Origin: Rufibacter hautae | GTDB lineage: Bacteria > Bacteroidota > Bacteroidia > Cytophagales > Hymenobacteraceae | Assembly: GCF_008271695.1 (NCBI RefSeq) | Contig: NZ_VKKY01000001.1 | Coordinates: 1,792,589 to 1,856,588, forward strand | DNA length: 64,000 nucleotides | Direction of reading: 5' to 3' | Shown here: positions 6,701 to 63,247 of the stretch, one piece after another | Layout: the number at the start of each line of letters is the position of its first letter | How positions within the stretch are numbered: position 1 is the first letter of the stretch | Made by a program: the position numbers and the translations under genes | Notes under the pieces: model-generated | Databases searched by the model: none | Seen by the model: the letters and a program-made list of their open reading frames with translations, nothing else | What the model was told of the DNA's origin: nothing

Positions 6701-6736
6701 GTTTTAAGGCTGTTTTTCAGAAATCAGGGTAAAAAC
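6701..6736. repeat. Dispersed nested palindrome (copy 1)
   Basis: GTTTTAAGGCTG...CAGGGTAAAAAC around a TTTTTCAGAAA centre; reversed orientation by the GAAATC mark. Just after the thioesterase stop. Confidence 0.7.
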
Positions 6737-6776
6737 GGAGCCGCGGATTTGTGAGGTTGAAGGATTACCGGTAGAA

Positions 6777-6838
6777 CTGCTTTCCAGGGGAACGCACCCC
6801 TGCCCCTCCCAGGAGGGGATTTTTCCTACTAACGCACC
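6777..6838. repeat. C-rich intergenic hairpin
   Basis: CCCCTCC-CA-GGAGGGG followed by ATTTTTCC: a perfect 7-bp stem in a C-rich stretch. Similar C-rich hairpins occur at 12259-12292 and 39385-39446. Confidence 0.5.
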
Positions 6839-6882
6839 TACAAAAGTCTAGCTTGGCTTTCCTTTTAGACCCACTTCCCCAT

Positions 6883-8355: not shown

Positions 8356-8452
8356 AGAAGCTTTGTTTCAGACTTGTTTTTAGGAAAATAGGCGCAAATC
8401 ACCCTCGACCCACGCACTCTCAATATGCACAAAGCAGCGCTATGCCGGTGGT

Positions 8453-9549: not shown

Positions 9550-9585
9550 GTTTTAAGAGCGCTTTTCAGAAATCGGCTTTGAAAC
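9550..9585. repeat. Dispersed nested palindrome (copy 2)
   Basis: GTTTTAAGAGCGC...GGCTTTGAAAC around TTTTCAGAAATC; reversed orientation. Confidence 0.75.
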
Positions 9586-9669: not shown

Positions 9670-9713
9670 CCCTCTTTTAGAGCTGTTTCGCGGAAAACGG
9701 CCTTAAAAGAGGG
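9670..9713. repeat. Dispersed nested palindrome (copy 3), terminator-like
   Basis: CCCTCTTTTAGAGCTGTTT pairs with AAAACGGCCTTAAAAGAGGG around CGCGG. The outer 9-10 bp pair perfectly, extending the core element. Lies past the stop of the ABC ATPase gene (minus strand). Confidence 0.8.
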
Positions 9714-10481: not shown

Positions 10482-10518
10482 CTCGTTATGCGGCTATTTT
10501 TTGAAATCAGGGTTAAAA

Positions 10519-12006
10519 CTAAGCTTGCCGGAAACCGGCCGCGATGGCGTATTTCTCGCGCTGGAAACGGCTGACCACTATGCCCAGCAACTGCCGGTGG
10601 AAAAGGAATCCCAGCAGACCAAGGGTGCCTACGGCCGCGATTCCCCACCAAGGCTTGTCCATCAGCCCGAAGGGCAGGTACACCAGGATTGGGAGGAGCA
10701 GCGCGGGCAGCATCAGGATGAACTGTGAGGCACCCACCCCCTGCCAGTTAAAGGAAGCGCTCTTGCTCAGGTCAATCCGCTTTTTGTTGTAAGTGCTTAG
10801 GTACAGCACCACAAACGTGTTGATCCCGATGTTGTAGAGAAAGCAGGCCGTGTTGATGAGCATGATTTTTACGCCGCTACCCGGCATGAGCCCATACAGC
10901 AGCGTCACCAGGTAAGCGACGGTACAGGCGGGCACAAACAGCCAGAACTTGCCCAAGTAGAAGGTATACGGGCTGAGGCGTTTGGTGAGCAGGGCATCAA
11001 AGTGAGCGCTCTGCCAGCCCGGCACAAACTGGCCGTAGCTCAGCATCATGAAACCCGTCATGAAAATACCCGGAAAGATAAGCATGGCAAACCCTTTGGT
11101 GTACATTTCCTGGGTGTAGAAGATGAACCCATAGGCCATAAAGAGGACAGACATCATGGTGGTGGACTTAGGCCGTTTGTGGCGCAGAATCAACTTCAAC
11201 TCAAGCCCAATGAGCGTACCCAATTCCCCGAAACGCTGCAGGAAACCGATCTCGGCGGAGGTGCCCACCTTAGACTGTTTCCTGATGCGTATTTCCTCTG
11301 GGTACGTGTGCGCGATCAGGAAGCGGTAGTTGAGCAGATAGACCGCCACGAGCAGCACCAAGGGTACCAGCACCCAAACCGGGGTCATGCCCAAAGCCCG
11401 GAAGAACGCCCCAGAAGCGGTTCCAACTGAGATCAAGTTCAGGTAATCTAAGGTAGCCAAGGCCACTATCGCCAGCAGAAACCCGAAGGTCACCAAGGGT
11501 TTCTCCACCAGTTGACGCTTGAAGTAAAGTGTCAAAAAGTTATTGATCAAAGTAATCAGAAACAGCCCTAAAACCCACATCCAGGCACCAGTTAGCCCGT
11601 ACACCTGCGGCAATACTTTCAGCGCAAACGGGACGAACAGCAGCAAAGACATGTAATTGAAGAAGCTGGTGATAGACTTCCAGAGCACGAAATGCACCAG
11701 TTTGCCTTTGCCTACCGGCAAGTGCAGGTACGGTTGAATGCCCAGCACCGGCAACTCCTGCATAAAGAACCTAAAGGCCAGGTCAAACAAGAAGTAGTAC
11801 AGCAGCGCCCCGTTGATTACCGCCACCGGATCTTTGTCTGGCCACACCTGCTCAAGGATCTTGTCCATGAACAAGCTCAGCAGTACCACATACAGCAGCA
11901 ACAGGAGCATGAAGAAGCCCAATACCAGGTTCACGGCAAGGTTCTTCTGCCATACACTGGAACGGGTAGCTTCTTTCCATTGGTGAGAAAGTAGAAGTCT
12001 GATCAT
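10519..12006 (-). CDS. DUF5687 family membrane protein, ABC permease partner
   Basis: 495 aa with about 10-12 hydrophobic segments. It opens MIRLLLSHQWKEATRSSVWQ, with conserved blocks QELPVLGIQPYLHLPVGKGKL near residue 84 and FLTLYFKRQLVEKPLV, and a C-terminal pair of helices. I recall this pattern as DUF5687, a Bacteroidota family encoded beside ABC ATPases. It is probably the membrane half of an exporter with the adjacent ATPase; the ATPase lies 37 bp downstream. The substrate is unknown. Confidence 0.82.
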   Translation of the reverse strand: MIRLLLSHQWKEATRSSVWQKNLAVNLVLGFFMLLLLLYVVLLSLFMDKILEQVWPDKDPVAVINGALLYYFLFDLAFRFFMQELPVLGIQPYLHLPVGKGKLVHFVLWKSITSFFNYMSLLLFVPFALKVLPQVYGLTGAWMWVLGLFLITLINNFLTLYFKRQLVEKPLVTFGFLLAIVALATLDYLNLISVGTASGAFFRALGMTPVWVLVPLVLLVAVYLLNYRFLIAHTYPEEIRIRKQSKVGTSAEIGFLQRFGELGTLIGLELKLILRHKRPKSTTMMSVLFMAYGFIFYTQEMYTKGFAMLIFPGIFMTGFMMLSYGQFVPGWQSAHFDALLTKRLSPYTFYLGKFWLFVPACTVAYLVTLLYGLMPGSGVKIMLINTACFLYNIGINTFVVLYLSTYNKKRIDLSKSASFNWQGVGASQFILMLPALLLPILVYLPFGLMDKPWWGIAAVGTLGLLGFLFHRQLLGIVVSRFQREKYAIAAGFRQA

Positions 12007-13851: not shown

Positions 13852-13895
13852 CCCCGTTTTTGGGCTGTTTTTCTTTAAACAGCCCCAAAACGGGG
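13852..13895. repeat. Dispersed nested palindrome (copy 4), terminator-like
   Basis: CCCCGTTTTTGGGCTGTTT pairs almost perfectly with AAACAGCCCCAAAACGGGG, loop about 6 nt. Lies 36 bp after the glutamate dehydrogenase stop (minus strand), where a terminator is expected. Confidence 0.85.
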
Positions 13896-15474: not shown

Positions 15475-15512
15475 CGTTTCTGCCCTCATTTCTGAGAAAC
15501 AGGCCCAAAACC
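15475..15512. repeat. Dispersed nested palindrome (copy 5), degenerate
   Basis: CGTTTCTGCCCTC...CAGGCCCAAAACC around TTTCTGAGAAA. In the divergent gap. Confidence 0.55.
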
Positions 15513-16988: not shown

Positions 16989-17025
16989 CGTTTAGGGGCT
17001 GATTTTCTAAAAAGCCTTCAAAACA
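16989..17025. repeat. Dispersed nested palindrome (copy 6)
   Basis: GTTTAGGGGCTGATTTTC...AAAGCCTTCAAAAC, forward orientation. Its end abuts the terminator that follows the M28 gene. Confidence 0.65.
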
Positions 17026-21146: not shown

Positions 21147-21182
21147 GTTTAGGGCCTCTTTTCAGAAAAGGAGCCCTAAAAC
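21147..21182. repeat. Dispersed nested palindrome (copy 7), terminator position
   Basis: GTTTAGGGCCTC-TTTTCAGAAAAG-GAGCCCTAAAAC, nearly perfect. It lies 11 bp after the patatin stop. Confidence 0.85.
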
Positions 21183-22281: not shown

Positions 22282-22320
22282 AGCCCCGCTTCTTTGAACA
22301 CAGTTCTGGGAAACGGGGCT
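22282..22320 (-). terminator. Hairpin AGCCCCG...CGGGGCT flanked by A and T runs
   Basis: 7-bp perfect outer stem with a TTC/GGAA inner part. Related in style to the dispersed palindrome. On the minus strand AAGCCCCG leads to TTTTT, fitting a terminator of the GIN-gene transcript. Confidence 0.5.
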
Positions 22321-22514
22321 AAAAACAGGAAAAGTATGGATCGGGTTTCAGGCAAATAGCCTACCTTCATGCCCGGTGGTTCACCAGAAGTGAAGGGAAA
22401 TCGTTGGCTTTATTTCACGTCTCTCTACAAACATCAGATCCAAAAACCTGAAGAAATGCAGCCCGATTTCCCTTACACTTTGGCTTTTGCCTATAAGACC
22501 TTTAGCAATTAAGC

Positions 22515-22552
22515 CGTTTTAAAGCCGATTTCCGGAAAACAAGGCTAGAACG
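22515..22552. repeat. Dispersed nested palindrome (copy 8)
   Basis: CGTTTTAAAGCCGATTTCC...GGAAAACAAGGCTAGAACG, forward orientation by GATTTC. Confidence 0.75.
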
Positions 22553-23412: not shown

Positions 23413-23448
23413 GTTTTGGGCCTGTTTAACTGAAAACGCCTCTAAAAC
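23413..23448. repeat. Dispersed nested palindrome (copy 9)
   Basis: GTTTTGGGCCTG-TTTAACTGAAAAC-GCCTCTAAAAC. In the divergent gap between the GIN and TonB genes. Confidence 0.7.
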
Positions 23449-23591
23449 AGCCCGGCAGTTAGTCTACAACCCAAACCCATTCAGAGACAAATTGCGCATG
23501 TTGGTCTTCTTAACAGAATATTAATATTCTCCTATGTAGGGGTGATGGCTGTTTTCGCGGTCTTTTGAAGAATACCTGCTTAAACAGTATC

Positions 23592-25961
23592 ATGCAATCT
23601 CTTCCTTACCAATCGTCTTGCAGAAAGCTTCTCTTGCTTTTCTTCTGCACCTTCCTCTTCGCTCTCCCTTTGTCAGGAAATGCCCAACAGAAACTCACCC
23701 TCAGCGGCTACGTGAAAGACCAGTCCTCCGGCGAAGGCCTCATTGGCGCCACCGTAGGCGTGCGCGAGCTCTCCGGCGTGGGCGCCGCCACGAACGAATA
23801 CGGCTTCTTCTCCCTCACTCTGCCACAAGGCACCTACACCGTGGTGGTAAGCTACCTGGGCTTCGTCACGCACACCCAGATGGTGGCGCTCTCTTCTCCG
23901 CAGAAACTCAACATCGAGCTTAAAAGTGACCAGACCGCCCTGCAGGAAGTAGTGGTCACCAGCACCGATGTGAAAGACGAGAACGTGCGCAGCATGGAAA
24001 TGAGCACCATGAAAATGCAGGTCGCCGAGCTCAAGAAAATGCCGGCCCTCATGGGCGAGGTGGACGTGATCAAGGCCATCCAGATGACGCCGGGCGTACA
24101 GACGGCCGGTGAGGGAACCAGCGGCTTCTACGTGCGCGGCGGCGGCGTGGACCAGAACCTGATTTTGCTGGACGAGGCCCCCGTGTACAACGCCTCCCAC
24201 CTCATGGGCTTCTTCTCCGTGTTCAACGCCGATGCCATCAAAGACGTGCAGCTCTACAAAGGCGGCATCCCCGCGGAGCACGGCGGCCGGTTGTCCTCGC
24301 TGCTGGACATCCGGATGAAAGAAGGGAACAGCAAACGGTTCGCCGCCTCGGGCGGGATCGGAACGCTCAGCAGCCGCCTGACCGTGGAAGCGCCTATCGT
24401 GAAAGACAAAGGCTCGTTCATCCTCTCGGGCCGCAGAACCTACGCTGATGTATTTTTCAAACTCAGCTCAGACGAAGGCATCAAAGACAACCAGCTCTAT
24501 TTCTACGACCTGAACCTGAAAGCCAACTACATTCTGGGTCCGAAGGACAGGCTGTTCGTGAGCGGGTACTTCGGGCGCGATGTGGCGGGCAACAACTCCG
24601 GTGCGTTTGACTGGGGCAACGCCACGGCCACTCTGCGCTGGAACCACCTCTTTAACGACAAGCTGTTCACCAATACCACGCTCATCTTCTCAGATTTTGA
24701 CTACTCGCTGGGCTCCAAAGAGAAATCTTCTGAGTTCACCTGGACCTCGCACATCATTGACTACAGCCTCAAAAACGACTACACCTACTACCTCAATCCG
24801 CAGCACCAGTTCAAGTTTGGGTGGATGGGCACGTTCCACCGGTTCCAGCCGGGCGTAGTGAAACCAGGCCCCGAGTCGTACTTCAACGAGATCAGGTTAG
24901 ACGGATCAAACGCCCTAGAAACTGCCGCGTACCTGAGCCACCAGTATGAGATCACGTCGCGCCTTTCTATGGAGTACGGCCTGCGCTTCTCTTATTTCGC
25001 GAACGTGGGCAAAGGCACCGTGTATGAGTACGCTGAGGACGGTTTCACCAAAATCGGGCGCAAAGACTACGGCTCTCTGGAAGTCATCAAAGACTATAGG
25101 GGCTTGGAGCCGCGCTTCTCAGCGAAGTACCAGGTAGATGAGAAAAGCTCCGTGAAGACCTCCTACAACCGCATGCGCCAGTACCTGCACCTGTTGTCTA
25201 ACTCCACCGCCTCGCTGCCTTTTGACGTGTGGGTGCCCAGCAACCACTACACCAAACCGCAGATCGCTGACCAAGTGGCCGCCGGGTACTTCCGAAACTT
25301 CCAAGACAACATGTTTGAGGCCTCGGTGGAGGTGTACTACAAATGGATGCAGAACCAGATTGACTACAAAGACAATTCTGATGTGTTCCTGAACAACCGC
25401 ATTGACACGGTGTTGCTGCGTGGTTCGGGCACGTCTTACGGCGCGGAGTTTATGCTGCGCAAGCAGAAAGGCGATTTCACCGGCTGGATTGGCTACACCT
25501 GGTCTAAAACTGACCGCACGGTGCCCGGCATCAACGGCGGCAAGGCCTACCCGGTACGCTACGACCGTCGTCACTCGGTGAACGTGGTTTCTACTTACCA
25601 ACTGAACCAACGCTGGAGCTTCGGGGCCAACTGGACCTACGCTACCGGGGGGGCCACCACTATGCCCGTGGGCCGCTTTGAGTACGAGGGGCACTCCTAT
25701 CCTATCTACTCCTCGCGCAACGGGTTCCGGTTGCCCGCTTACCACCGCTTGGACTTAGCGGTAACCTATGACCGACCCAGAAGCCTAACCGGCAAGAAGC
25801 ATGACAGCAGCTGGAGCCTCTCACTCTACAATGCTTACAACCGCAAAAACGCGTTTTCCATCGCTTTTAGAGAAAACGAGGACAATACGGCCCAGACCGA
25901 GGCGGTAAAAACCTACATGTTCGGGATCATCCCGGCTATTACTTACAACTTCAATTTCTAA
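23592..25961 (+). CDS. TonB-dependent receptor with carboxypeptidase-like plug extension
   Basis: 789 aa from the ATG at 23592, which gives a good signal peptide ending in SGNAQQ; the frame extends upstream to a TTG at 23565. After the signal a carboxypeptidase-regulatory-like domain appears (LSGYVKDQSSGEGLIGATVGV...NEYGFFSLTLPQGTYTVVVSYLGF), then the plug (QEVVVTSTDVKD...GVQTAGEGTSGFYVRGGGVDQNLILLDEAPVYN), then a 22-strand-type barrel ending FGIIPAITYNFNF. It imports an unidentified large ligand across the outer membrane using TonB energy. No SusD-like gene follows; a DUF4249 lipoprotein gene lies 21 bp downstream, forming a two-gene unit. Confidence 0.93.
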   Translation: MQSLPYQSSCRKLLLLFFCTFLFALPLSGNAQQKLTLSGYVKDQSSGEGLIGATVGVRELSGVGAATNEYGFFSLTLPQGTYTVVVSYLGFVTHTQMVALSSPQKLNIELKSDQTALQEVVVTSTDVKDENVRSMEMSTMKMQVAELKKMPALMGEVDVIKAIQMTPGVQTAGEGTSGFYVRGGGVDQNLILLDEAPVYNASHLMGFFSVFNADAIKDVQLYKGGIPAEHGGRLSSLLDIRMKEGNSKRFAASGGIGTLSSRLTVEAPIVKDKGSFILSGRRTYADVFFKLSSDEGIKDNQLYFYDLNLKANYILGPKDRLFVSGYFGRDVAGNNSGAFDWGNATATLRWNHLFNDKLFTNTTLIFSDFDYSLGSKEKSSEFTWTSHIIDYSLKNDYTYYLNPQHQFKFGWMGTFHRFQPGVVKPGPESYFNEIRLDGSNALETAAYLSHQYEITSRLSMEYGLRFSYFANVGKGTVYEYAEDGFTKIGRKDYGSLEVIKDYRGLEPRFSAKYQVDEKSSVKTSYNRMRQYLHLLSNSTASLPFDVWVPSNHYTKPQIADQVAAGYFRNFQDNMFEASVEVYYKWMQNQIDYKDNSDVFLNNRIDTVLLRGSGTSYGAEFMLRKQKGDFTGWIGYTWSKTDRTVPGINGGKAYPVRYDRRHSVNVVSTYQLNQRWSFGANWTYATGGATTMPVGRFEYEGHSYPIYSSRNGFRLPAYHRLDLAVTYDRPRSLTGKKHDSSWSLSLYNAYNRKNAFSIAFRENEDNTAQTEAVKTYMFGIIPAITYNFNF

Positions 25962-26805: not shown

Positions 26806-26854
26806 CGTTTTGGAGCTATTTTGGAGCCGTTTTCCAGAAATCGGCTCTAAAACG
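26806..26854. repeat. Dispersed nested palindrome (copy 10) with duplicated left arm
   Basis: CGTTTTGGAGC occurs, then TATTTTGGAGCCG, then TTTTCCAGAAATC, then GGCTCTAAAACG. The left arm is present twice. Reversed orientation mark. Confidence 0.75.
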
Positions 26855-28327: not shown

Positions 28328-28365
28328 CGTTTTACGCACCATTCAAGAAAAACAGGGCTAAAACA
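28328..28365. repeat. Dispersed nested palindrome (copy 11), degenerate left arm
   Basis: CGTTTTACGCACCATTC...GAAAAACAGGGCTAAAACAG. The right arm is well conserved. Confidence 0.55.
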
Positions 28366-29528: not shown

Positions 29529-29574
29529 AAAGCGTTTCCAGACCCTTTTGGGTAAAAGAGCCCGAAAACGCTTT
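29529..29574 (-). repeat. Dispersed nested palindrome (copy 12) acting as terminator of rnr
   Basis: AAAGCGTTT...AAAACGCTTT outer stem of about 9 bp, with CCAGACCC/GGGT and TTTT/AAAA inside. It is 13 bp after the rnr stop. Confidence 0.75.
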
Positions 29575-32055: not shown

Positions 32056-32093
32056 CTGTTTAAAGCCTCATTTTACGAAAACATGGCAAAAAC
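32056..32093. repeat. Dispersed nested palindrome (copy 13), degenerate
   Basis: CTGTTTAAAGCCTCATTTTACGAAAACATGGC...AAAAAC. Between rnr and the ABC gene. Confidence 0.5.
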
Positions 32094-32123: not shown

Positions 32124-33947
32124 CTATTGTTCTATACTTGCTTTGTACGCTTTTCGTTTCTCTTGCGCCGCTAAAATATCCTTGAGCTCCCCAGCCGGGA
32201 CGGCCTGGAGCAAGGCTTTGGTGTAAGGCTGCTGCGGAGAAGCGAAAATCTGGTGCGCGGGCCCCTGCTCCACAATGCGGCCTTTGTCCATCACCAGCAG
32301 GCGATCAGACATGAATCTGGCCAAAGAGAGGTCGTGGGTAATAAAGAGGAGCGTGAGGTTGAAATCGCGCTTGAGACGGTTGAGCAGGTTCAGGATCTGG
32401 GCCTGCACCGATACGTCTAAAGACGAGACGATTTCATCACAGATGATACACGTGGGTTCCAGCGCCAACGCCCTGGCAATGCAGATACGCTGTAATTGTC
32501 CGCCGGAAAATTCATGGGGATAACGGTGAAAATGCTCGGGCAGAAGGTGAACGGTCTCTAGTAACTCAAAGGTCCGGTGCCTTCTCTCCTGTTGGGTATG
32601 TAACACCCCGTGCACCTGCATGGGTTCCATAATGGCGGCCCCTATTTTCATCATAGGATTGAGCGAAGCCAACGGATTTTGGAAGATCATCTGGAAGTCT
32701 TTCCTGCTTTTCCGCAGCTCCTCCGCGGGCAAATCAAACCAATCTTTCCTGTTGAAAACTACTTTCCCCAAGGTAGGCTCTATCAACCGCAACAAAGCCC
32801 GCCCCAACGTGGTTTTCCCACAGCCAGATTCGCCCACGATGCCCAACGTCTCACCCGGGAAAACCTCAAAGGAAATGCCGTTTACTGCTTTCACCACCTC
32901 TTTTTGTTGCCAAAAGAACAATCTACCCCGGGTGAATTTCACGTGGATATCTTGTACTTGCAGGATAGGCTCTCCTGCTATCTCTTTCTCCCTTGAAAAG
33001 TCCTGATCTTGCTTCACTTTTTGGGTCTTTTCCACTGCTTTCTGAGGGCTTTCCGTTTCAGCGTCATTTTCCTGAAAACGGTTCTGAAACTCCCCCGGGC
33101 TGAAGTCTAAAAGGGTGGGCAAAACGTTTCCTTGGGTGTGCAAGGTGGGCCTACAGGCGAGCAAGGCTTTGGTGTACGGATGCTGCGGATTGGTAAAGAT
33201 TTGCGTTACGGTCCCCTCTTCCACTATATGGCCTTGGTACATCACTAAAATCCGGTCTGCGATTTCGGCCACTACGCCCAGGTCATGGGAAATAAATAGC
33301 AGGGCCATCTCTTTTCTAAGCCGCAGTTCATTGAGCAACTGCAGGATTCCGGCCTGTACGGTGACATCCAAGGCTGTGGTAGGTTCATCCGCGATGAGGA
33401 GAGAAGGTTCGCAGGCCATGGCCATGGCAATCATGATCCGTTGCTTCTGTCCCCCGGAAAGCTCATGTGGAAAACGCCTGAAAATCTTTTCCGGCTCGGG
33501 CAGCTTCACTAACTCAAAAAGCGCCAGGGTGCGGGAATACGCCTCTTTTTTTGAAATAGGCAAGTGGATGAGCAAAGCCTCTGCAACCTGTTTTCCACAG
33601 GAGATCACGGGGTTCAAGGAGGAGGAAGGGTCTTGGAAGATGATGGAAATCTCCTGGCCTCTTACCTGGGGCAACTGCTTTTCCAGGAGTTTCAATAAGT
33701 CTATCCGGCCCAATCCAGGAGAGTTGAACATAGCAGAACCAGAGATCTGAACCTCACCTCGGGGCAAAAGCTGCATGAGCGATAGGGCTGTCACTGTCTT
33801 ACCCGAGCCGGACTCCCCCACAATGGCCACAGCCTCCCCTTTCCTGATCTCAAATGAAATACCCTTTACAGCCGGCACCGTTTCCTGTCGCGTTTCAAAG
33901 GCGATATCCAATTGGTCTACTTGTAACAAGGGCGCGGCTGTAGGCAT
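32124..33947 (-). CDS. Dipeptide/oligopeptide-type ABC ATPase with two fused NBDs
   Basis: 607 aa, two complete ATPase domains of the peptide/nickel importer group. The first (about 8-250) has Walker A VGESGSGKTVTALSLM and Walker B LIADEPTTALDVTVQ; the second (about 330-590) has VGESGCGKTTLGRALLRL and IICDEIVSSLDVSVQ. Both have the SGGQ signature (HELSGGQKQRIMIAMA and HEFSGGQLQRICIARALALE). Each ends with the PHP-type oligopeptide C-terminal segment (PQHPYTKALL, PQQPYTKALL). The fusion resembles GsiA/YejF. No permease or binding-protein gene is next to it, so partners lie elsewhere or it works with other subunits. Confidence 0.93.
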   Translation of the reverse strand: MPTAAPLLQVDQLDIAFETRQETVPAVKGISFEIRKGEAVAIVGESGSGKTVTALSLMQLLPRGEVQISGSAMFNSPGLGRIDLLKLLEKQLPQVRGQEISIIFQDPSSSLNPVISCGKQVAEALLIHLPISKKEAYSRTLALFELVKLPEPEKIFRRFPHELSGGQKQRIMIAMAMACEPSLLIADEPTTALDVTVQAGILQLLNELRLRKEMALLFISHDLGVVAEIADRILVMYQGHIVEEGTVTQIFTNPQHPYTKALLACRPTLHTQGNVLPTLLDFSPGEFQNRFQENDAETESPQKAVEKTQKVKQDQDFSREKEIAGEPILQVQDIHVKFTRGRLFFWQQKEVVKAVNGISFEVFPGETLGIVGESGCGKTTLGRALLRLIEPTLGKVVFNRKDWFDLPAEELRKSRKDFQMIFQNPLASLNPMMKIGAAIMEPMQVHGVLHTQQERRHRTFELLETVHLLPEHFHRYPHEFSGGQLQRICIARALALEPTCIICDEIVSSLDVSVQAQILNLLNRLKRDFNLTLLFITHDLSLARFMSDRLLVMDKGRIVEQGPAHQIFASPQQPYTKALLQAVPAGELKDILAAQEKRKAYKASIEQ

Positions 33948-34811: not shown

Positions 34812-34834
34812 GCCGATTTCTTAAAAACACCTAT

Positions 34835-35503: not shown

Positions 35504-35551
35504 CCGGCCGTTTCAAGCTTCTTTGTCTTAAAGGAGGCCGAAAACGGCCGG
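35504..35551. repeat. Dispersed palindrome (copy 14) with long outer stem
   Basis: CCGGCCGTTT and AAACGGCCGG form a 10-bp perfect outer stem around a TTTGTCTTAAAGG centre. Between ileS and lspA on the same strand. Confidence 0.75.
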
Positions 35552-39335: not shown

Positions 39336-39375
39336 CCGCTTCGGGGCTACTTTTTTGAAAACAAGCTGGAAACGG
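39336..39375. repeat. Dispersed palindrome (degenerate copy 15)
   Basis: CCGCTTCGGGGCTAC...GAAAACAAGCTGGAAACGG. Right half recognisable, left half degraded. Confidence 0.4.
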
Positions 39376-39558: not shown

Positions 39559-39594
39559 ATTTTAAGCCTACTTTTCCAAAAACGGCCTTGAAAC
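39559..39594. repeat. Dispersed nested palindrome (copy 16)
   Basis: ATTTTAAGCCTACTTTTC...AAAAACGGCCTTGAAAC. Confidence 0.6.
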
Positions 39595-40829: not shown

Positions 40830-40877
40830 AAAAGCGGTTTGGGCATGTTTTACTGAAAACATACCCAAACCGCTTTT
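40830..40877 (+). repeat. Dispersed nested palindrome (copy 17), terminator of the epimerase gene
   Basis: AAAAGCGGTTTGGGCATGTTTT and AAAACATACCCAAACCGCTTTT give an almost perfect 22-bp stem, loop ACTG. A GGGCAT/ATACCC pair replaces the GGGCTG/CAGCCC of other copies. It is 21 bp after the epimerase stop. Confidence 0.9.
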
Positions 40878-41344: not shown

Positions 41345-41380
41345 GCGTTTAGAAGCTGCTTTTGTGAAAACAGCAGATTT
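41345..41380. repeat. Dispersed palindrome fragment (copy 18)
   Basis: GCGTTTAGAAGCTGCTTTTGTGAAAACAGCAG. The inner stem is intact, the outer one is lost. Confidence 0.5.
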
Positions 41381-41387
41381 CCACAGC

Positions 41388-44589: not shown

Positions 44590-44656
44590 GCTTTTACCCC
44601 CTTTCTAAGCTCATCTGCTTACCAGAGATTCTTTCTCTTCCTATATCTTGAAGCTG

Positions 44657-44691
44657 CTTTAAGGCTGATTTCTGTAAAACGGCTCCTAAAC
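44657..44691. repeat. Dispersed nested palindrome (copy 19)
   Basis: CTTTAAGGCTGATTTCTG...TAAAACGGCTCCTAAAC, forward orientation. Confidence 0.65.
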
Positions 44692-44956: not shown

Positions 44957-45070
44957 CCGCGCCAGAATCACGTATTTGGTGTAAACCGGGCAAATGACTT
45001 GGTATATGTCCTCCATTTTGGGCTTGAATTTGGTAGAATAGCCCCTAAATGCCTGAAGTAGGAAGTAGCT

Positions 45071-45623: not shown

Positions 45624-45676
45624 AGTTTCTATTGGTTATATGGTTCCGTTTCCGGGTTTGTTTTCCTAAAACTACT

Positions 45677-45684
45677 CAAAAATA
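45677..45684 (-). promoter_or_regulatory. Candidate -7 box of the acidic protein gene
   Basis: Minus strand reads TATTTTTG (TAnnTTTG), 54 bp before the ATG at 45623. It lies at the left edge of the candidate origin region. Confidence 0.4.
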
Positions 45685-46191: not shown

Positions 46192-47781
46192 CTAGAATTC
46201 GATGGCCTGCGATTCAATTTCCCAGTTGGCCCTGATCTCCCAAATGTCTTTGGGCAGGATCACCGGCTCTGGCAATCTGCGCTCCTTCAGGAGGCCGTTG
46301 TCCCATTTTCCGTTACCGTTCAGGTCCACCAAAATCCTGATCTGGTAAGACCCGGGCTTGAGATCGTCCCAAAGAATGGTTTTCTGGTTCTTCACTTCCT
46401 TCACCACAGCATTCTGAGTCAGGAGCTGCACTATGAAGTTTTGCTGCTTGGTAGAGAACACCACCTTCAGGCTGCCGGCATCTACCTTATCGCTTACCTG
46501 GAGGCTCTGCGGCATTTTTCCATACGGATCCCCAATGTACGGTAAGACCTTAGTGGTATCCATGTTGACCTCAATCTCGCGTTTGGCCACCAGCGGCAAC
46601 CTGAACGTGATCTGGGTGGTCTCCGGATTAAACCGGAAATCTGAGGTGTCTTTGGTAGTGACGGTGGTGGCGGAATCCAGCACGAAGGAGAAGGCTCCTA
46701 CTGGGTTTACTACTTTGGTAGGCACCTCAAACTGCACTCTGATTTGCTCGCCGGGTTTCACGGGTGACCCGTTCAAGACCGCAAAGCTGTTGTTTTTGCG
46801 GGGAGCCGCTTTTCCGCTGAGGCGCACGGCCACCGTGTCCAGGCGGGAGTTGTTGGCGCTGTCCTGTACTTCCACAAGCCAATGCTTCTCATCGGGCTTT
46901 CCGGGGAACAGGCGCAGGGTTTTGCCGTTGTTCCCGATCAGGTATCTCATGTTGGGGTCTTTGTCTGCAGCGGTAACTGTCGCCTGGGCGATTCCCTCGT
47001 TGTACTCTACTTCATACATGTTCAGGAAGCTTCTTCTAGCGATGACGTTTGGCCGGGTCACATCCTGGGTATGCAGTTGCAGCTGGACGCCCTCTACCGA
47101 TGGTCGTACTTTGATAGTGTCGGTGGTATAGGCAATGTATTCCTTCTCGTTGTCGTACCGCAGGTTGTTGTTCGTCTCGGTTAAACCGTAGATGAAGTAA
47201 TTGCCTTCTTTGATGTTCCGGAAGCTGAAATTCCCGCTGGAGTCTGTGTTGGTCACGTACAGCGGCCGGCCTTTGGTCACCTGGGAAGTATCTGTCACCG
47301 GGTACAAGAGCACGTTCACCTCTTTGGGTGGCGTATTGCTGAACAGTAGGTTGGCCTTGCCGCTTACCCGCCCGGAGTCTAACAACGGACCCGTACTAAA
47401 AGTGATGATCACGTCCCGAGCTGGGTTTTTCTCCGTCACATCTGCCAGGCTTTTCCTGAAGTTGAGGCTATAGGTGGTATTCTCTTCCCAGGGTTGCGAA
47501 AAGGTGAGTTCCACGGTGCCGTCTTTTACCCTGCTCTTATAGGTATTGTCTGTAAACGGCGCGATGATGAGTTGCCGCGTGAGGTCTACCGTCTGAATGT
47601 TTTCATCAAAGGTCAACCTGATCTCCTCGGGTTTCACGTTAGTCTGCCCGTTGCTGGGATAGCTGCTCACAAGTTTAGGAGGCGTGACATCTTTGGCTCC
47701 CCCCTCGGGGCTGCTGATGCTGGCGCACCCACCTAGAAACAGGGCCAAGCCCGTGAGTGCGTTTTTAAGCTGATTTTTCAT
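46192..47781 (-). CDS. Lipoprotein with bacterial Ig-like (Big_5) domain
   Basis: 529 aa. The lipobox is LALFLGGCAS (Cys near residue 19). An Ig-like Big_5 domain follows (residues about 32-130: VTPPKLVSSYPSNGQTNVKPEEIRLTFDENIQ... and TTYSLNFRKSLADVTEKNPARDVIITFSTG). Then comes a carboxypeptidase-like module (TNTDSSGNFSFRNIKEGNYFIYGL), further beta-rich modules, and a C-terminal KTILWDDLKPGSYQIRILVDLNGNGKWD. It is an anchored outer-envelope protein of a type common in Bacteroidota; the role is not known. The stop lies about 12 bp from the last DnaA-like box. Confidence 0.8.
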   Translation of the reverse strand: MKNQLKNALTGLALFLGGCASISSPEGGAKDVTPPKLVSSYPSNGQTNVKPEEIRLTFDENIQTVDLTRQLIIAPFTDNTYKSRVKDGTVELTFSQPWEENTTYSLNFRKSLADVTEKNPARDVIITFSTGPLLDSGRVSGKANLLFSNTPPKEVNVLLYPVTDTSQVTKGRPLYVTNTDSSGNFSFRNIKEGNYFIYGLTETNNNLRYDNEKEYIAYTTDTIKVRPSVEGVQLQLHTQDVTRPNVIARRSFLNMYEVEYNEGIAQATVTAADKDPNMRYLIGNNGKTLRLFPGKPDEKHWLVEVQDSANNSRLDTVAVRLSGKAAPRKNNSFAVLNGSPVKPGEQIRVQFEVPTKVVNPVGAFSFVLDSATTVTTKDTSDFRFNPETTQITFRLPLVAKREIEVNMDTTKVLPYIGDPYGKMPQSLQVSDKVDAGSLKVVFSTKQQNFIVQLLTQNAVVKEVKNQKTILWDDLKPGSYQIRILVDLNGNGKWDNGLLKERRLPEPVILPKDIWEIRANWEIESQAIEF

Positions 47782-47800
47782 TTGTGGCTTTAAAATGGAA

Positions 47801-51534: not shown

Positions 51535-54500
51535 CTAATAACCTAATCGCTTAAAATAAGCATCTACTTGCTTTTTATAATAAGGTGTCAAAGCAGGTAG
51601 GTTCTGACGGAGCGATTCTGTCTGCTGTTTCTGCCGTTCCTGGTACTTCTGAAGCGATGGCGGTATACGGGCGGGCAATTCCTTAGCGGTATTTGCTTCT
51701 CGTTTCTCGTCCAGATCGCGTTCATTGGCGGCTTTCTCAGCTTGCAGCAAACGAGTCAAAATCTCCTTTTGCCGCATCATGGTCTGCTCTGTAAGACGTT
51801 TATTAACGAGATCAGTTTCGGTTTGTTCCATGAGCTTGCTCAAATTACTGAGTTTCTCCCCTCCTTCTTTGCCTCCCGGCTGGGTAGGCGAAGGGGCCAG
51901 TTCTTTCATGGCATTCCGGAGCATTTCCTGCTGCGCCGCCAGGCGGGCCAGTTGCTCTGATAATTGCTGACCACTTTTCCCACTCTGCTGCAACTGCTGG
52001 ATCTGCTCATTCAACTGCTGCTGCATCTGCCCCAAGGCACCCGGTTGGTTCTTGCCGTTCTTGCCTTTCCCTTTCTTCTTGCCCGGTCCACTTTGCTGCA
52101 TGGCCATCATGGCCTGTTGCATCTGCTGCTGCACATCACTCAACATCAAGGCCAGGTTGTTCATGGAGGTCATAGCCAGCTGCTGGTGCTGACCGGTCTT
52201 AGGCAAGTTACGGTCTTTGATGGCCTCAGAACTGTTCTGCATCTCCCCTTCCATGGCACCTACTTCACGGGTCACAAACGACTGGATCTGCGGCACGCGT
52301 TTGGCCAGGGAGAGCAATGAATCTTCAATAATCTTAGCGTCATCTGAGAGTTTGATCTGCTGTTGGGCCAGCCCGATGAACCTAGGGTCGCTCTGCTGCA
52401 CGTTCCGGAAGTCCTTCATGAGTTTCTCCTGGTCAAAGGACAGCGTTACCAGGTTCTCTAGGATATCCCGCAGGTGGTCCAGGTTCTGCTGCATCTGCTG
52501 GGAGTCGCCTTCCATTTCCTGGCTTTGCATCTGCTGCGACATCTGCTTCATCTTTTGCGCCGCTGATTTCTGCGACTGGCTCGCTTTCTTGTTCTGGCCT
52601 TTCTGCATAGACTCCTGGGCATTCTCCTGCTCCTGCTCAATCTGCTCCTCCATCTTCTCGGTGTCAGGGATGTCTTCAGGGTTCTCCAGTTGCTCATTCA
52701 TCTTCTCGGCCTCTTTGAGGTCTTCCTGCATCTGCTTGAATTCCTCTTGCAGTTGCTTTTGTTCCTGCTGTAGGCTTTGATCAGGTTTGTTGTTCTGCTC
52801 GCCGGTTTTGTTCGCCAGATCCTCCTGCTTCTTGGCTAGATCGTCTAGCTTCTGTTGGGCATTGTCTAGCTTCTGCTCTACTTGTAGCTGCTTGAACATC
52901 TCCAGCAAGCGGTCCAGCTCTTTCTGCAGGTTTTCTTCTTTGTTATTGAGTTTGTCCAGGAGCGGCTGGATCTGTTCTGGCCGAGGCTGCTTTTGCTCCA
53001 GCAGTTTCTCCAGTTGTTCGTAAAGCTTCTTAGTCTCGTCGTCCAGCAGTTGGTCCATCATCTTCTTGAGTTGGTCGCGTTTCTCGGCTAGTTTCTCGTT
53101 TTGGGGCGAGAAACGCTCCTGCTGCTGGTTCAACTGCTCGTTCATCTTCTGCAACTGGGCCAGTTCTTCTTGCAAAGCCTTCTTCTTCTCGGCAAGTTCC
53201 TGCAGGGCTTTTTTATCCTGGTAAGAGAGTTCTTTCTTTAGCTTGGTTTTCTCTTCGTTCTGCTCCAGAGATTTCTTCAGTTCCTCGGCCTTGGTGAGCG
53301 ACGACTTCATCTGGGACTGCACTTGCTGCGAGGATTCTTCAATGGATTTCTGCACCTCAGACGGGTCTGGGTACTTGAAGATGAAGGTTGAAGTGCGCGC
53401 GCTCTTCGGTTGGGGCACCTGGTCGTTATCCGTTACTTGCACAAAGTACTCCAGTCTGTCGCCGGGCTGCAGATTCAGCGGCTTCAGGTTCATCTGCCGG
53501 AAATACGACTGCGTGGCCAAAGAGCCGCTGAACGGAATAGAAACCGCTCGGTAGCCAGTGGCCGCTTTGTTTCCTCTGAGCACGCGGTAGTGCAGGGAAA
53601 GATTGCTGAAGCCGTAATCATCTGAGATGGTCCCTCCTACTACTAAATAAGAGTACAGCACCGAGTCACGGAATTGCTCTAAAGTAATCTCAGGGTTGCG
53701 GTCTGGGATAACGGTGACCTGGTGCGAGATCTGCTCTTTATTTTCTGAGTAGCGGTTCTTGAGGTGCATGCTGTAGCGCTGGCTCTGCATGAACGTCTTC
53801 CGCACCACGTATTCCTCGTCTTCGGTTTGGGCTTTTACTTTCTGGGCCGGCGCATCAAACTGTAACCAGAGCGAATCGGCGTTGTCTGCGGCCAGGCGCC
53901 AGGTCACTTGCGTTCCCTCAGGAATAGTCAAATCTCCTGTGTTGTCTAGGATTTCGGAAGGACGTTTGGTATAGGCAGGATAACGTAACTGGGCTTTCAA
54001 CTGCCGAAGCATGGGCCTGGCCACTACGGTTAAGCGGTTTTCATCTGAATAGAAGCCGGCGCCGGTCAACTGGAAATCCACCGACTCCTGCACTTGCTCA
54101 AAATCATAAGCGTAGGTCTGGTCTTTCAACTTATTGAGCGGCATCTGCCGGCCGTCAATGACCAGAAACACTTCTTCTGGCACGCGGTTCCCTTCAATGT
54201 TCACCTTCAACTGAAAATCCTCGCCTTTGAATGCCTGCAAGGAGGAATTCTGGATTTCAAACTGGAAAGGAGCTTTGGGGGCATAATGCCGCTTGAAATG
54301 GATGATGCGCTCCGTTCCCTGCACAAACAAAGTCGGGTAAATAAAAGCCAAAACCACTACCAAGGTAAGCGGCAGCAGCAGGTATTTAAAGTAAGAGCGG
54401 TTCTGGGTGAATTTAATCCGTTCCGGAAAGCGATACCCCACCAATTCCTCTGAGCGTTGCTCTACACTAGCAGCTACCAGGCCATTGCTCATGGCTACGT

Positions 54501-54855: not shown

Positions 54856-55213
54856 AAGTGAGATAAGATTAGAGTAGCCCGAAACAACGGTACGGGAGAA
54901 ATGAGTACCAGCCGTTTCCTTTTATTGTCATACGTATTTAATCAGCAGAGTATTAACTCTTTTGCTTACTAATTTATTGTTAATTCTCTGATTTGAGAGC
55001 ATTCCGCAGGGTTTTTGGGCTATATTCCTCAAATCAGGTGAAAAACGAAACAGGAGAGGAAAATGGTTCCTGTGGATAGGTGACGAATGGTTTTCCCTAG
55101 TCTATAATATAAGGAGGGACGCTGTCCACAGAAGAAGTAAAACAAAAATACGTTTCTGGCCTGTTTTCCCAGAAACAGACCAAAAACGCATTTTCAAGGT
55201 AGGAGGAGAAAAT
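54856..55213. other. Non-coding gap with one dispersed palindrome
   Basis: 358 bp. It contains the palindrome at 55151-55188; otherwise no structure of note. Confidence 0.5.
55151..55188. repeat. Dispersed nested palindrome (copy 20)
   Basis: CGTTTCTGGCCTGTTTTCC...AGAAACAGACCAAAAACG, strong. 26 bp after the xth stop. Confidence 0.8.
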
Positions 55214-56401: not shown

Positions 56402-56437
56402 ATTTAGAGCCTAATTTGATGAAAATAGCCCTAAAAC
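56402..56437. repeat. Dispersed nested palindrome (copy 21)
   Basis: ATTTAGAGCCTAATTTG...GAAAATAGCCCTAAAAC. Confidence 0.6.
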
Positions 56438-56520: not shown

Positions 56521-56556
56521 GTTTTAGGGCTGATTTCCAGAAAACAGGTCGGGAAC
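56521..56556. repeat. Dispersed nested palindrome (copy 22)
   Basis: GTTTTAGGGCTGATTTCC...AGAAAACAGGTCGGGAAC, forward orientation, close to consensus. 11 bp after the CMD gene stop. Confidence 0.8.
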
Positions 56557-57767: not shown

Positions 57768-57783
57768 GGAAATAAAGGATTTC

Positions 57784-60121: not shown

Positions 60122-60132
60122 CTGAAAATACC

Positions 60133-60166: not shown

Positions 60167-63100
60167 ATGAGGAAAGTATTTATAGGTCTGGCAGTATTTA
60201 TTGTGGTATTGCTGGCCGCAGCTGCTCTCATCCCCATCTTCTTCAAAGATAAGATCAAGGAGCGCCTGGATAAAGAGATTGCCAAAAGTATCAACGCCCG
60301 CGTCTTATACGAAACAAATAACGTAAGTCTGTCGCTATTTCGCACATTCCCAGACCTGGGCCTGAGCGTAAAAGAACTCACCATTGTAGGCAAGGATTCC
60401 TTCCAGCGTGACACCCTCGCCTACCTGCCAGATTTCAATCTGGGCTTGGACCTGATGAGCGTGATCTCCGGCGACCAGATCGAGATCAACTCGGTGCAGA
60501 TGGACGAGCCGCGCCTCAAGCTGTTGGTGCTCAAAAGCGGAAAAGCCAACTGGGACATCTTCATCCCTGATTCCGCCGCTACCCCCGAGGCCCAGGACAC
60601 CACTGACTTCAAGATGGGTATTGAGGAATGGAAAATCAACAATGGGCAGATTGTGTACCAAGACCTGAGCATCCCGTTTGGGGTGAACGCCTACAATGTG
60701 CAGCATACCGGCAGCGGCGACTTGGCCAAAGACGTTTTCGATATGGAAACCAAGACGCAGGCCGAGCGCTTCACCATGACCTACGGAGGCGTGAACTACA
60801 TTGAGAACAAGAAGCTGGACGCTGATGTGACCCTGGCCATGGACCTGGCCAACATGAAGTACACCTTCAAAGACAACAACTTCCGGATCAATGATTTTGC
60901 CTTAGGCATGGCCGGCTCCATTGCCATGCCCACCGATGACATCAACCTGGATTTAACTTTTAAGGCCCTGGAGACTGATTTCAAGAATATCTTCTCGTTG
61001 GTGCCCGGTGTATTCACTAATAAATTCAAGGATGTGAAGACCGATGGCAAAGTAGCGTTCAACGGTTATGTGAAAGGAATCTTTAATGAGACCACTATGC
61101 CAGGCTTCGGGGTAGACCTGAAAGTGAACAACGGAACCTTCCAGTACCCAGATCTTCCGCAGGCCGCCAAGAATATCAACATTGACATGAGCGTGAAAAA
61201 CGCGGATGGCAACATTGACCACACGTTAATTGATGTCCGCAGACTGCACCTTGACCTGGGCAAGAACCCGGTGGATGGCCGCGTAGTCATTGATGGTTTG
61301 GAGCCGATGAAAGTAGATGGAAACCTGAAAGCCAAGTTAGACTTGGCCGAGGTGACCAAAGTGTTCCCGCTGGAAGGCACCACCCTCCGCGGCTTGCTGG
61401 ACATAGACGCCAATGCAAAAGGCGTGTACTTTGAAAACCACATGCCGGTAGTGACCGCCAAACTGAACCTTTCCAACGGTTACGTGAAATCATCCTCGTT
61501 CCCAGCGCCATTGGAACAAGTAACGGTGGCTTCTACCGTAGTGAACCGCACCGGCAACGCCGCCGATACAGACATCCAGGTGTCCCGCTTTAAGATGCTC
61601 TTAGACAAAGAACCGCTGGAAGGCCGCGTGTCCATCAAGAACCTGGCTCAACCCCAGTTCGATGCTGATGTGAAAGGAGTACTGGATTTGACCAAACTCA
61701 CCAAGATCTTCCCCATCGAAGGCACCACCCTCAGCGGCCGCCTGAACGGAAACATCCTAGCCAAAGGCAAGATGACCGATGTGGACGCCGGCCGTTACGG
61801 CAACGTGCAAGCCAGCGGCACCGTGCAGATTGCACAACTAAACTACAAGAGCACCGATCTGCCTCAGGGCATGCGCATCAACTCGGCTAGGGCTACTTTC
61901 AACAATGAGAAGGTGGCGCTTCAAGGACTCAATGGGTTCCTGGGCAAGAGCGATGTACAGATGGACGGCACTGTCTCCAATTACATGGGCTACCTGTTCT
62001 CAGAAAACCAGCCCTTGCGCGGTAACTTCTCCCTGCGGTCCAACAGTTTCAATGTGAACGAATGGATGGTAGATGAGCATACCGGCCAAACGGTACCTTC
62101 CTCTACCCAAGAAGCACAGGGTGTGGTGCAGATCCCAGCTAACCTGGACATGGTGTTGACAACCCAGGCGGGAACCGTTATCTACGATAACCTGAAGCTG
62201 CAGAATGTGAAGGGAAAAGTGACCCTTAAAGACCAGATAGCCAGACTGGAAGATGTTTCTTTCAACACGCTGGGCGGCCAGTTTTCCACTACCGGTTCTT
62301 ATGACTCCAGAGACCTTATCCACCCAAAATTCTCCTTTGGGCTGGACATCAAGAACCTTGATTTTCAAGAATCTTTCAACTCCTTCAATACCATCCAACA
62401 GATTGCGCCCATCGCCAAACTGCTGAAAGGTGAGTTCTCCTCTAAGTTCAATTTCAGCGGAGAGTTGGGAAGTGACATGATGCCGGTGATGAGCACGCTT
62501 ACCGGTAAAGGCATGATTGAGGTAGTAGAAGCCGTGGTGACGAACATCAAGGCCCTGAGCAAGATCAGCCAGTTGACCAACCTGAAGGAAGTTCAGAACT
62601 TCACCCTCAAAAACCGAGGCTTTGCGGCTGAGATCGTGGGTGGCAACCTGGTGGTAAAGCCCTTTGACTTTGCCGTGGGCGACATCAAGATGACCGTAGG
62701 CGGCACGAACAATGTCAGCGGAAAAGTAGACTATGTGGTGGCCATGGATGTCCCTTCCGGGAAGGTAGGAAACGCTTTGGCCGGAAAGATCACCAGCCTT
62801 ACGGGCGTGCAGAACCTCAACGGCCTGGAGCGGGTAACCTTGCAACTGGGCGTGACCGGAAACTACAATGACCCGGCTGTGGCCCTGAAAGGCAGCAGCC
62901 TCAAAGCCGAGGCTTCCTCTCTGGTGAAACAGGTGGTGACCAGCAAATTGGAAGGCGTGAAAGAGAAATACAACGTGAACGTGCCTACGAACAAAGATAG
63001 CCTCAAAGTTGAATTAGCCAGAAAGCAGCAGGAAATGGAGCTGAAGGCCCGCCAGGAGTTGGAGGTGAAACGCCAGGAAGCGGAGCAAAAACTCAAAGCC

Positions 63101-63181
63101 GAGGCCAAATCAAGGCTGAATAAACTTCTTGCTCCCAGAAAGCCAACTACCTCAACGCCAGTAGATACCACCAAGAAGTAG
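60167..63181 (+). CDS. AsmA family protein
   Basis: 1004 aa. N-terminal membrane anchor VFIGLAVFIVVLLAAAALIPIFF (residues 4-26). It then reads FKDKIKERLDKEIAKSINARVLY, the AsmA start, followed by very long repetitive strand-rich repeats (IDMSVKNADGNIDHTLIDVRRLHLDLGKNPVDGRVVIDGL and similar) to about 960. A charged helical tail (QQEMELKARQELEVKRQEAEQKLK) follows. The family includes TamB/AsmA-like proteins that move lipids between membranes; this is family knowledge. It is divergent from porP with 45 bp between the starts. Confidence 0.88.
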   Translation: MRKVFIGLAVFIVVLLAAAALIPIFFKDKIKERLDKEIAKSINARVLYETNNVSLSLFRTFPDLGLSVKELTIVGKDSFQRDTLAYLPDFNLGLDLMSVISGDQIEINSVQMDEPRLKLLVLKSGKANWDIFIPDSAATPEAQDTTDFKMGIEEWKINNGQIVYQDLSIPFGVNAYNVQHTGSGDLAKDVFDMETKTQAERFTMTYGGVNYIENKKLDADVTLAMDLANMKYTFKDNNFRINDFALGMAGSIAMPTDDINLDLTFKALETDFKNIFSLVPGVFTNKFKDVKTDGKVAFNGYVKGIFNETTMPGFGVDLKVNNGTFQYPDLPQAAKNINIDMSVKNADGNIDHTLIDVRRLHLDLGKNPVDGRVVIDGLEPMKVDGNLKAKLDLAEVTKVFPLEGTTLRGLLDIDANAKGVYFENHMPVVTAKLNLSNGYVKSSSFPAPLEQVTVASTVVNRTGNAADTDIQVSRFKMLLDKEPLEGRVSIKNLAQPQFDADVKGVLDLTKLTKIFPIEGTTLSGRLNGNILAKGKMTDVDAGRYGNVQASGTVQIAQLNYKSTDLPQGMRINSARATFNNEKVALQGLNGFLGKSDVQMDGTVSNYMGYLFSENQPLRGNFSLRSNSFNVNEWMVDEHTGQTVPSSTQEAQGVVQIPANLDMVLTTQAGTVIYDNLKLQNVKGKVTLKDQIARLEDVSFNTLGGQFSTTGSYDSRDLIHPKFSFGLDIKNLDFQESFNSFNTIQQIAPIAKLLKGEFSSKFNFSGELGSDMMPVMSTLTGKGMIEVVEAVVTNIKALSKISQLTNLKEVQNFTLKNRGFAAEIVGGNLVVKPFDFAVGDIKMTVGGTNNVSGKVDYVVAMDVPSGKVGNALAGKITSLTGVQNLNGLERVTLQLGVTGNYNDPAVALKGSSLKAEASSLVKQVVTSKLEGVKEKYNVNVPTNKDSLKVELARKQQEMELKARQELEVKRQEAEQKLKAEAKSRLNKLLAPRKPTTSTPVDTTKK

Positions 63182-63200
63182 TAAGAATAACCATATTTTT

Positions 63201-63247
63201 AAAGCCGTTTTTAGTCTTTTTTCTTAAAATAGGCTAAAAACGGCTTT
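63201..63247 (+). repeat. Dispersed nested palindrome (copy 23), terminator of asmA
   Basis: AAAGCCGTTTTTAG and CTAAAAACGGCTTT form a 14-bp perfect outer stem, followed by ATTTTTG. 20 bp after the asmA stop. Confidence 0.85.

Follow-up and report, generated by a model that had tools for sequence, protein, structure and literature searches.

What kind of element is the degenerate palindrome that recurs between the genes of Rufibacter hautae, and what might it do there? The question is raised by a 64 kb stretch of this genome (contig NZ_VKKY01000001.1, positions 1,792,589 to 1,856,588; "the window" denotes this whole stretch), for which an earlier note had described at least 23 copies of one family, built from outer and inner arms over about 36 bp and placed almost only between genes. 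We tentatively favor the explanation, held to be possible and somewhat short of probable, that the copies are duplex-DNA sites of a putative dimeric protein at transcription-unit boundaries, which double as parts of terminators near the 3' ends of genes.

A degenerate two-fold symmetric site in R. hautae

Using a matrix trained on 464 kb of the R. hautae genome and then refined (core of 36 bp, 40 bp with edges), 40 sites were found in the window at a score of at least 18. This corresponds to about one site per 1.6 kb, a closer spacing than the 2.5 kb estimated before, and the initial count, correct as a lower bound, understated the family. The comparison with shuffled sequence, one of the checks proposed in the earlier note, bore the family out, as the shuffled window (320 kb) reached a top score of 14.7. 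Shuffles of 400–464 kb scanned with sister versions of the matrix reached maxima of 16.5–18.4, and because of this, sites scoring below 20 are regarded as doubtful, including the weakest three of the window (starting at 22291, 23551 and 53079). In the 464 kb of R. hautae, 345 sites were found at a threshold passed by 5 shuffled sites; 89 of 345, 33 of 258 and 5 of 143 sites lie inside predicted genes at scores of at least 10.5, 20 and 30, respectively. In the window, 35 of the 40 sites lie outside the genes called with a home-made simple gene finder, in agreement with the intergenic placement described initially.

The consensus, YGTTTTARGSCTGTTTTC-NN-GAAAACAGSCYTAAAACR, is two-fold symmetric, spans 36–40 bp and reproduces the previously described arm plan. 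The information is largely concentrated in four T/A tracts whose spacing is fixed, the two of each half being about 11 bp from each other. Because the motif is degenerate, simple searches fail: a simple pattern gave 22 matches in the window with 22.9 expected by chance, and a near-exact consensus pattern gave 0 matches in the R. hautae genome. The window contains no Rfam match at gathering score and no tRNA.

Restriction to the genus Rufibacter

The skeleton GTTTN9TTTN4AAAN9AAAC occurs 633 times in the R. hautae genome, compared with a single match of the reversed pattern. Counting such matches in related Hymenobacteraceae, as had been suggested, revealed 186–1561 per genome in all 16 Rufibacter genomes (reversed control 0–2) and 0–3 in each of the other 188 of 204 Hymenobacteraceae genomes. 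Among 395 genomes across the phylum, R. hautae included, all others have 0–4 matches with 0–5 for the control. Extrapolation from the densities in seven genomes suggests about 1,600–3,300 sites per Rufibacter genome. When 40 kb from each of two related genera were searched for symmetric motifs of this kind, none proved as strong as that of the Rufibacter genome G012; the method used is also weak on 40 kb of R. hautae. Moreover, in the literature on Rufibacter, Hymenobacter and Hymenobacteraceae (among the matches listed), on concerted intergenic palindromes and on boundary proteins, a scope outside of which subscription papers and preprints lie, no title describes such a site.

Placement in the gaps between genes

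Placement was analyzed in gaps of 80–400 bp for occupancy and Poisson expectations, of 80–500 bp for promoters and neighboring gaps, and of 100–400 bp for terminators. Occupied were 102 of 153 gaps in R. hautae, 61/121 in G008, 89/130 in G012, 41/68 in G005, 54/83 in R. immobilis (G004), 43/66 in G006 and 36/61 in G013. In all seven genomes, single-site gaps are more frequent and both empty gaps and gaps with at least two sites are less frequent than expected from a Poisson distribution; in G012, 41, 82, 7 and 0 gaps hold 0, 1, 2 and 3 or more sites compared with 67, 40, 16 and 7 expected. Site presence depends little on the neighboring gap, even where the gene in between is short (occupied fraction 0.57 among 96 gaps that follow a gap with a site, 0.64 among 56 that follow an empty one). 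In G012, a 31-kb stretch (C1, 107.5–139 kb; L055, L056) whose GC content is 36%, compared with about 50% for the genome, is free of sites. Gene calling with the host codon model yielded no more than 5 genes in it, and it is probably a foreign island.

Occupancy also varies with the class of the gap. Among gaps of 36–70 bp, 9 of 15 convergent and 6 of 73 tandem ones are occupied, short tandem gaps presumably being mostly operon-internal; among longer ones, sites are found in 105 of 124 convergent and 92 of 170 divergent gaps of at least 100 bp and in 248 of 376 tandem gaps of at least 150 bp. Of the tandem sites, 295 of 409 are closer to the stop than to the next start. Where a tandem gap contains a single site together with a separate terminator, the latter lies ahead of the site in 32 of 38 cases, a count made with no control for the usual places of terminators. 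In divergent gaps, promoter-like motifs (TANNTTTG) lie on the outward side of the site at ratios of 19:6 and 16:5, likewise with no control for the usual places of promoters.

Conservation in place and species dialects

For the comparison of orthologous places, those gaps were used for which both anchors were found in the relative. Among 113 gaps compared between R. hautae and R. immobilis, a site is present in both species in 68, in R. hautae only in 10, in R. immobilis only in 4 and in neither in 31 (p = 6e-15); the site offset agrees within 5 bp in 41 of the 68 shared gaps, and intermediate scores of 10–20 occur in 4. For 45 gaps compared with G012, the corresponding numbers are 22 in both, 9 in one only and 14 in neither. 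At these same orthologous places the spelling is that of the species: A at position 5 is found in 97 of 136 half-sites of R. immobilis and 26 of 136 of R. hautae, and C[AG] at positions 12–13 in 41 of 44 half-sites of G012 and 3 of 44 of R. hautae. In the close pair of R. hautae and Rufibacter sp. SYSU D00344 (G014), identity amounts to 93% in the skeleton, a value helped by the selection of sites with the matrix, 72% at variable arm positions and 67% in the flanks. The information content of the site is 22.8 bits in G008, 28.8 bits in R. hautae and 54 bits in G012.

The earlier note had considered an element like a miniature inverted-repeat transposable element (MITE). The similarity among copies is close to that of independent draws from the matrix: the nearest-neighbor identity is 29.45 compared with 29.22 in one simulation for R. 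hautae and 37.4 compared with 36.3 for G012, and near-identical copies are about as frequent as in one simulation in R. hautae, G008 and G006 slightly in excess in G012 and G013, and clearly in excess in R. immobilis and G005. In three gaps that differ in site presence (8, 10 and 14), no clean insertion was evident by eye; the flanks align poorly there, and target duplications were judged by eye only. Because places are conserved with in-place change and similarity is near that of independent draws, a spread by transposition is unsupported. Concerted change of dispersed sites in place fits better than jumping, and some copying or conversion between sites may occur.

Arm pairing

Pairing of the arms was counted for sites scoring at least 20 or at least 22; the split by context, made over seven genomes, used at least 20, with 12 "far" sites counted and left out of the test and 82 coding sites tested apart. 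When all copies are pooled, arm pairing is close to that of column shuffles and the arms match the consensus almost independently, by which RNA covariation as a property common to all copies was rejected. Position 6 shows a small pooled excess in several genomes; position 5 and flank positions −4 to −1 do so less regularly. The pairing excess summed over flank positions −6 to 0 amounts to 0.86 in 192 sites located at most 40 nt after a stop codon and to 0.77 in 179 convergent sites, and these copies show a strong excess both in the flanks and at arm positions 5–7. The sum is 0.19 in 116 divergent sites, where nothing stands out. For the 238 remaining tandem sites it is 0.17, and positions 6 (z 3.1) and −2 (z 2.6) are slightly in excess. 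The skeleton and the asymmetry of the center are alike across all four classes. As the pairing excess is restricted to classes while skeleton and center are shared, the common denominator of the copies is a duplex-DNA site, a subset of which has been worked into terminator-type hairpins. The site is thus not simply a terminator.

The proposal of the earlier note that paired positions change together holds for stop-proximal and convergent copies and fails for the family as a whole; both of its examples, 13852–13895 and 40830–40877, are 3'-proximal and belong to the class with a real pairing excess. The stem 40830–40877 is fully paired with other letters in G014, R. latericius (G003) and G012 and has one imperfect pair in R. 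sediminis (G010) and R. immobilis. In the same way, reuse of the element as a terminator applies to convergent copies and to those that follow a stop by at most 40 nt, and not to divergent ones.

The central dinucleotide

An asymmetric center had been taken to mark the direction of each copy. The arms proved statistically symmetric; the central dinucleotide, counted for sites scoring at least 22, is asymmetric, plainly in several species and weakly in R. hautae. The center is CA/TG in 142 of 170 sites of G012 (self-complementary 14, with 77 expected), GG/CC in 49 of 92 of R. immobilis (4, 31 expected) and CA/TG in 53 of 76 of G013 (11, 29 expected). The effect is moderate in G006 (CA/TG in 41 of 77; self-complementary 18, 26 expected) and weak or absent in R. 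hautae (39, 51 expected), G005 (18, 21 expected) and G008 (24, 28 expected). The asymmetry is independent of the perfection of the arms, with self-complementary centers in 7 of 91 G012 sites with good and 7 of 79 with poor arms; instability of palindromes as its cause is by the same counts unsupported. The suggested orientation test gave 128 sites in the same and 90 in the opposite orientation relative to tandem genes (p = 0.012), a result inconsistent between genomes and not relied on.

A putative protein site at transcription-unit boundaries

Genus restriction, placement and dialects of the site family are well supported, and the computations likewise establish its symmetry, the tendency to one site per gap, the conservation in place and the split into paired and unpaired copies; a binding protein and a boundary function are what we infer for the site. 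The presence of a symmetric, place-conserved and species-spelled site in most longer gaps suggests recognition by a putative protein at a large number of gene boundaries. Each copy would be a duplex-DNA recognition site of 36–40 bp with two half-sites of 18–20 bp, each containing two T/A tracts about 11 bp apart that enclose G/C-rich positions; the 2-bp center is asymmetric in several species. A putative dimeric or tetrameric sequence-specific Rufibacter protein would bind this site, and the bound complex might act as a boundary parting the end of one transcription unit from the start of the next, either by stopping RNA polymerase that reads through or by restricting how far supercoils spread. 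Those copies that closely follow a stop codon would additionally form part of terminator-type hairpins. If the preference of the protein drifts between species, the sites would follow by in-place substitution, giving rise to the dialects. The wider claim of a genome-wide boundary code, i.e., a 40-bp site standing typically once per transcription-unit border, with a putative reader protein and with each species spelling its thousands of sites anew while the borders they occupy stay the same, is put forward with more reserve.

Several observations weigh against this explanation. No binding protein was singled out for the site, and many gaps are site-free, namely 78 of 170 divergent gaps of at least 100 bp and 128 of 376 tandem gaps of at least 150 bp. 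Separate terminators are equally common without and with a site (tandem 26/147 and 41/253, p = 0.78; convergent 6/15 and 36/83), and the same is true for promoter-like motifs (tandem 29/191 and 52/291), so that sites are not visibly marks of unit borders beyond the class and length of the gap. The order of terminator, site and promoter is partly expected from the usual places of terminators and promoters, and the genes were called by a home-made predictor, by which some genes were missed. Furthermore, a species-specific asymmetric center is unexpected for a plain symmetric dimer, and the 54 bits in G012 are far above the roughly 12 bits that, by our estimate, are needed to find about 2,000 sites. 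Finally, near-identical pairs exceed the simulation in R. immobilis (44 compared with 14, of 93) and G005 (15 compared with 2, of 67), and identical 40-mers in G012, R. immobilis and G013 go beyond one simulation, as copying would give.

Transposase and recombinase genes

A REP-like element (repetitive extragenic palindrome) had also been considered, together with a search for a REP-type transposase gene. The RAYT model has matches in all 16 Rufibacter genomes, in 15 above the cut-off; in G006 it gave two partial matches in one 237-aa frame below the cut-off, with none for the Y1_Tnp model, and the single match in R. latericius has a stop inside. Sites lie within 500 bp on 0, 1 and 2 sides of 7, 5 and 8 of 20 RAYT-type genes (6 genomes), compared with 90, 173 and 98 of 361 control genes of 450–900 bp. 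Because there is one site per gap anyway, flanking on both sides in 8 of 20 compared with 98 of 361 is no clear excess. Of 9 motif-free Hymenobacteraceae genomes outside Rufibacter, 8 have matches to the Y1_Tnp model, the one used for that search. A link between the site and RAYT is thus conceivable but unsupported, and the REP-like interpretation of the site is disfavored by the conserved places and the single site per gap.

Of the 20 stretches around RAYT-type genes, 5 contain other short hairpins close to the gene. Those at L178, L184, L190 and L192 (GTTCGGGATT..AATCCCGAAC, CTTTCGGATT..AATCCGAAAG, CTTCCGGATT..AATCCGGAAG) are perhaps the true REP elements of the genus. A hairpin of the type TTGTTGGTG..CACCAACAA occurs three times near a RAYT-type gene in G012 (L181) and once in gap 10 of R. 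sediminis. The RAYT-bearing regions of G012 (L178) and G013 (L190) are 98.7% (712 bp) and 96.3% (750 bp) identical; the one protein compared in these two species is 84% and 75% identical, respectively, to that of the window. The region in G013 carries a site in the G012 dialect, which was therefore not re-spelled after the apparent transfer. As to serine recombinases, the only PF00239 match of the genome lies at C12:754-1152 in G002 and likewise at C1:2269617-2270069 in G005.

Alternative explanations

DNA uptake sequences (DUS) have a length of 10–12 bp, from which the long, two-fold symmetric Rufibacter site differs. An uptake-sequence-like signal, in which recombination of taken-up conspecific DNA would drive thousands of sites to the dialect of the species (molecular drive), is nevertheless the foremost alternative, if an unlikely one. 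It would agree with the many copies, the dialects, the information above need, the lack of sites in the 36% GC stretch of G012, and the parallel of the Neisseriaceae, whose DUS number in the thousands and keep a single conserved dialect within each species (PMC3630211). An uptake mechanism would not be expected to count gaps, and yet single-site gaps are above and empty gaps below the Poisson expectation, while occupancy is little tied to the neighboring gap; compared with the DUS of Neisseriaceae, the Rufibacter sites are also 36–40 bp long, mostly intergenic and one per gap. HIP1 of cyanobacteria is similar as a highly iterated palindrome over a taxon but is an 8-mer, GCGATCGC, linked to methyltransferases (PMC4390886), whereas the Rufibacter site is degenerate, 36–40 bp long and intergenic. 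Ranking behind an uptake signal, and improbable as well, is a mobile element resembling REP/REPIN or MITE that a transposase has dispersed. REP/REPIN elements with their RAYT (PMC3116915, PMC3733652) resemble the family in being dispersed, extragenic, palindromic, of many copies and species-specific in sequence, and RAYT-model matches in every Rufibacter genome, RAYT-type genes with sites on both or one side (in no clear excess over control genes) and the near-identical copies of R. immobilis and G005 are on the side of mobility. The sites nevertheless hold their places between species while changing there, and gaps with two or more sites are below the Poisson expectation, whereas REPINs are doublets (PMC3116915). 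They also differ from REPINs by the absence of a pairing excess in divergent gaps; the other hairpins near RAYT-type genes and the Y1_Tnp matches in motif-free genomes speak against mobility, too.

A still lower rank is given to a site of a serine-recombinase-like protein, active or domesticated, with symmetric arms around an asymmetric 2-bp crossover center that matches between sites. Serine recombinases have a crossover dinucleotide, which the asymmetric center of the site resembles, and the sites of large serine integrases are of similar size. The non-self-complementary, species-specific center with symmetric arms is strong in G012, R. immobilis and G013 and independent of arm perfection, as such a protein would have it, but moderate to absent in the other four genomes. 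Furthermore, PF00239 matches number 1 to 10 per genome in all 16 Rufibacter genomes and are also present in 3 of 3 genomes of related genera; an ortholog common to all was not established (alignment was not used), and gene order should be scrambled if thousands of sites recombined with one another. The least likely of the explanations weighed is that of ordinary bidirectional intrinsic terminators sharing a consensus by chance or mutation bias. The 3'-proximal and convergent copies do have extended co-varying stems, 116 of 821 sites have TTTTT no more than 20 bp from one end, tandem sites are mostly nearer to the stop, and terminators defined by a simple rule overlap the site in 20 of 83 convergent and 26 of 253 tandem site gaps. 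Against this stand the fixed 36-bp geometry with the same consensus and no pairing excess in divergent gaps, the restriction to one genus and the separate terminators beside sites. Possible parallels in gene-end function are bacterial interspersed mosaic elements (BIME) with gyrase sites, IHF sites and roadblock terminators such as Reb1 or TTF-I; the Rufibacter site differs from these in its genus restriction, and no sign of gyrase, IHF or a roadblock protein was seen.

Sites and separate palindromes of the window

The sites are compiled in Table 1. Apart from them, the window contains strong bidirectional terminator-like palindromes at 1659–1706, 26877–26909 and 57723–57769. The gap holding the last of these is without a site in R. 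hautae and with a site in R. sediminis and G012.

Table 1. The 40 sites of the window at a matrix score of at least 18, with their gene context.
Site	Position	Score	Context	Remarks
1	903..938	22.5	tandem gap	
2	1601..1636	33.4	tandem gap	orthologous site in 5/5 compared relatives
3	4597..4632	20.5	within predicted gene	doubtful
4	4973..5008	22.7	tandem gap	
5	6082..6117	28.4	short tandem gap	
6	6701..6736	43.8	convergent gap, stop + 1 nt	
7	8365..8400	35.6	tandem gap	weaker in G014, missing in G003, G010, G004
8	9550..9585	33.8	tandem gap	gap shared with site 9
9	9674..9709	34.7	tandem gap of site 8	extended stem
10	10484..10519	23.8	short tandem gap	
11	13856..13891	43.5	stop + 37 nt	extended paired stem 13852-13895
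12	15476..15511	35.9	mid divergent gap	arms not fully paired
13	16990..17025	26.0	stop + 2 nt	
14	21147..21182	37.6	convergent gap	
15	22291..22326	19.5	tandem gap	weak, doubtful
16	22516..22551	34.3	tandem gap	
17	23413..23448	35.6	divergent gap	
18	23551..23586	19.7	divergent gap	weak, doubtful
19	25853..25888	20.8	within predicted gene	doubtful
20	26818..26853	40.2	convergent gap	adjoins separate terminator-like palindrome 26877-26909
21	28329..28364	31.7	tandem gap	
22	29534..29569	30.6	stop + 15 nt	
23	32058..32093	35.7	tandem gap	same place in 6/6 genomes
24	33055..33090	29.2	within predicted gene	
25	34804..34839	27.1	convergent gap	overlaps terminator-like palindrome 34833-34876
26	35510..35545	28.2	tandem gap	offset 48-50 in 6/6 genomes; own-species dialect in G004, G012
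27	39338..39373	33.9	divergent gap	gap shared with site 28
28	39559..39594	38.8	divergent gap of site 27	
29	40836..40871	29.6	stop + 24 nt	paired stem 40830-40877 and T run
30	41347..41382	20.6	convergent gap of site 29	
31	44656..44691	36.9	convergent gap	gap shared with site 32
32	45015..45050	25.5	convergent gap of site 31	
33	45648..45683	28.2	tandem gap	22 nt from left gene
34	47761..47796	22.3	straddles predicted gene edge	
35	53079..53114	18.0	within gene	doubtful; kept in relatives, explicable by coding sequence
36	55011..55046	33.1	tandem gap	
37	55152..55187	38.7	stop + 24 nt	paired stem
38	56402..56437	35.1	tandem gap	arms not fully paired
39	56521..56556	35.0	stop + 8 nt	
40	63206..63241	29.7	stop + 22 nt	paired stem and T run

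Implications

If the sites are indeed read by a protein at transcription-unit boundaries, some bacteria would possess a general sequence-specific border device, insulator-like in character, that has arisen in one genus and is now present in most longer gaps. With some thousands of sites, the genomes of 16 species and several dialects, Rufibacter would then allow the co-evolution of a protein with its sites to be followed as a natural experiment. Moreover, the site might serve as a predictor of transcription-unit borders in Rufibacter genomes from sequence alone.

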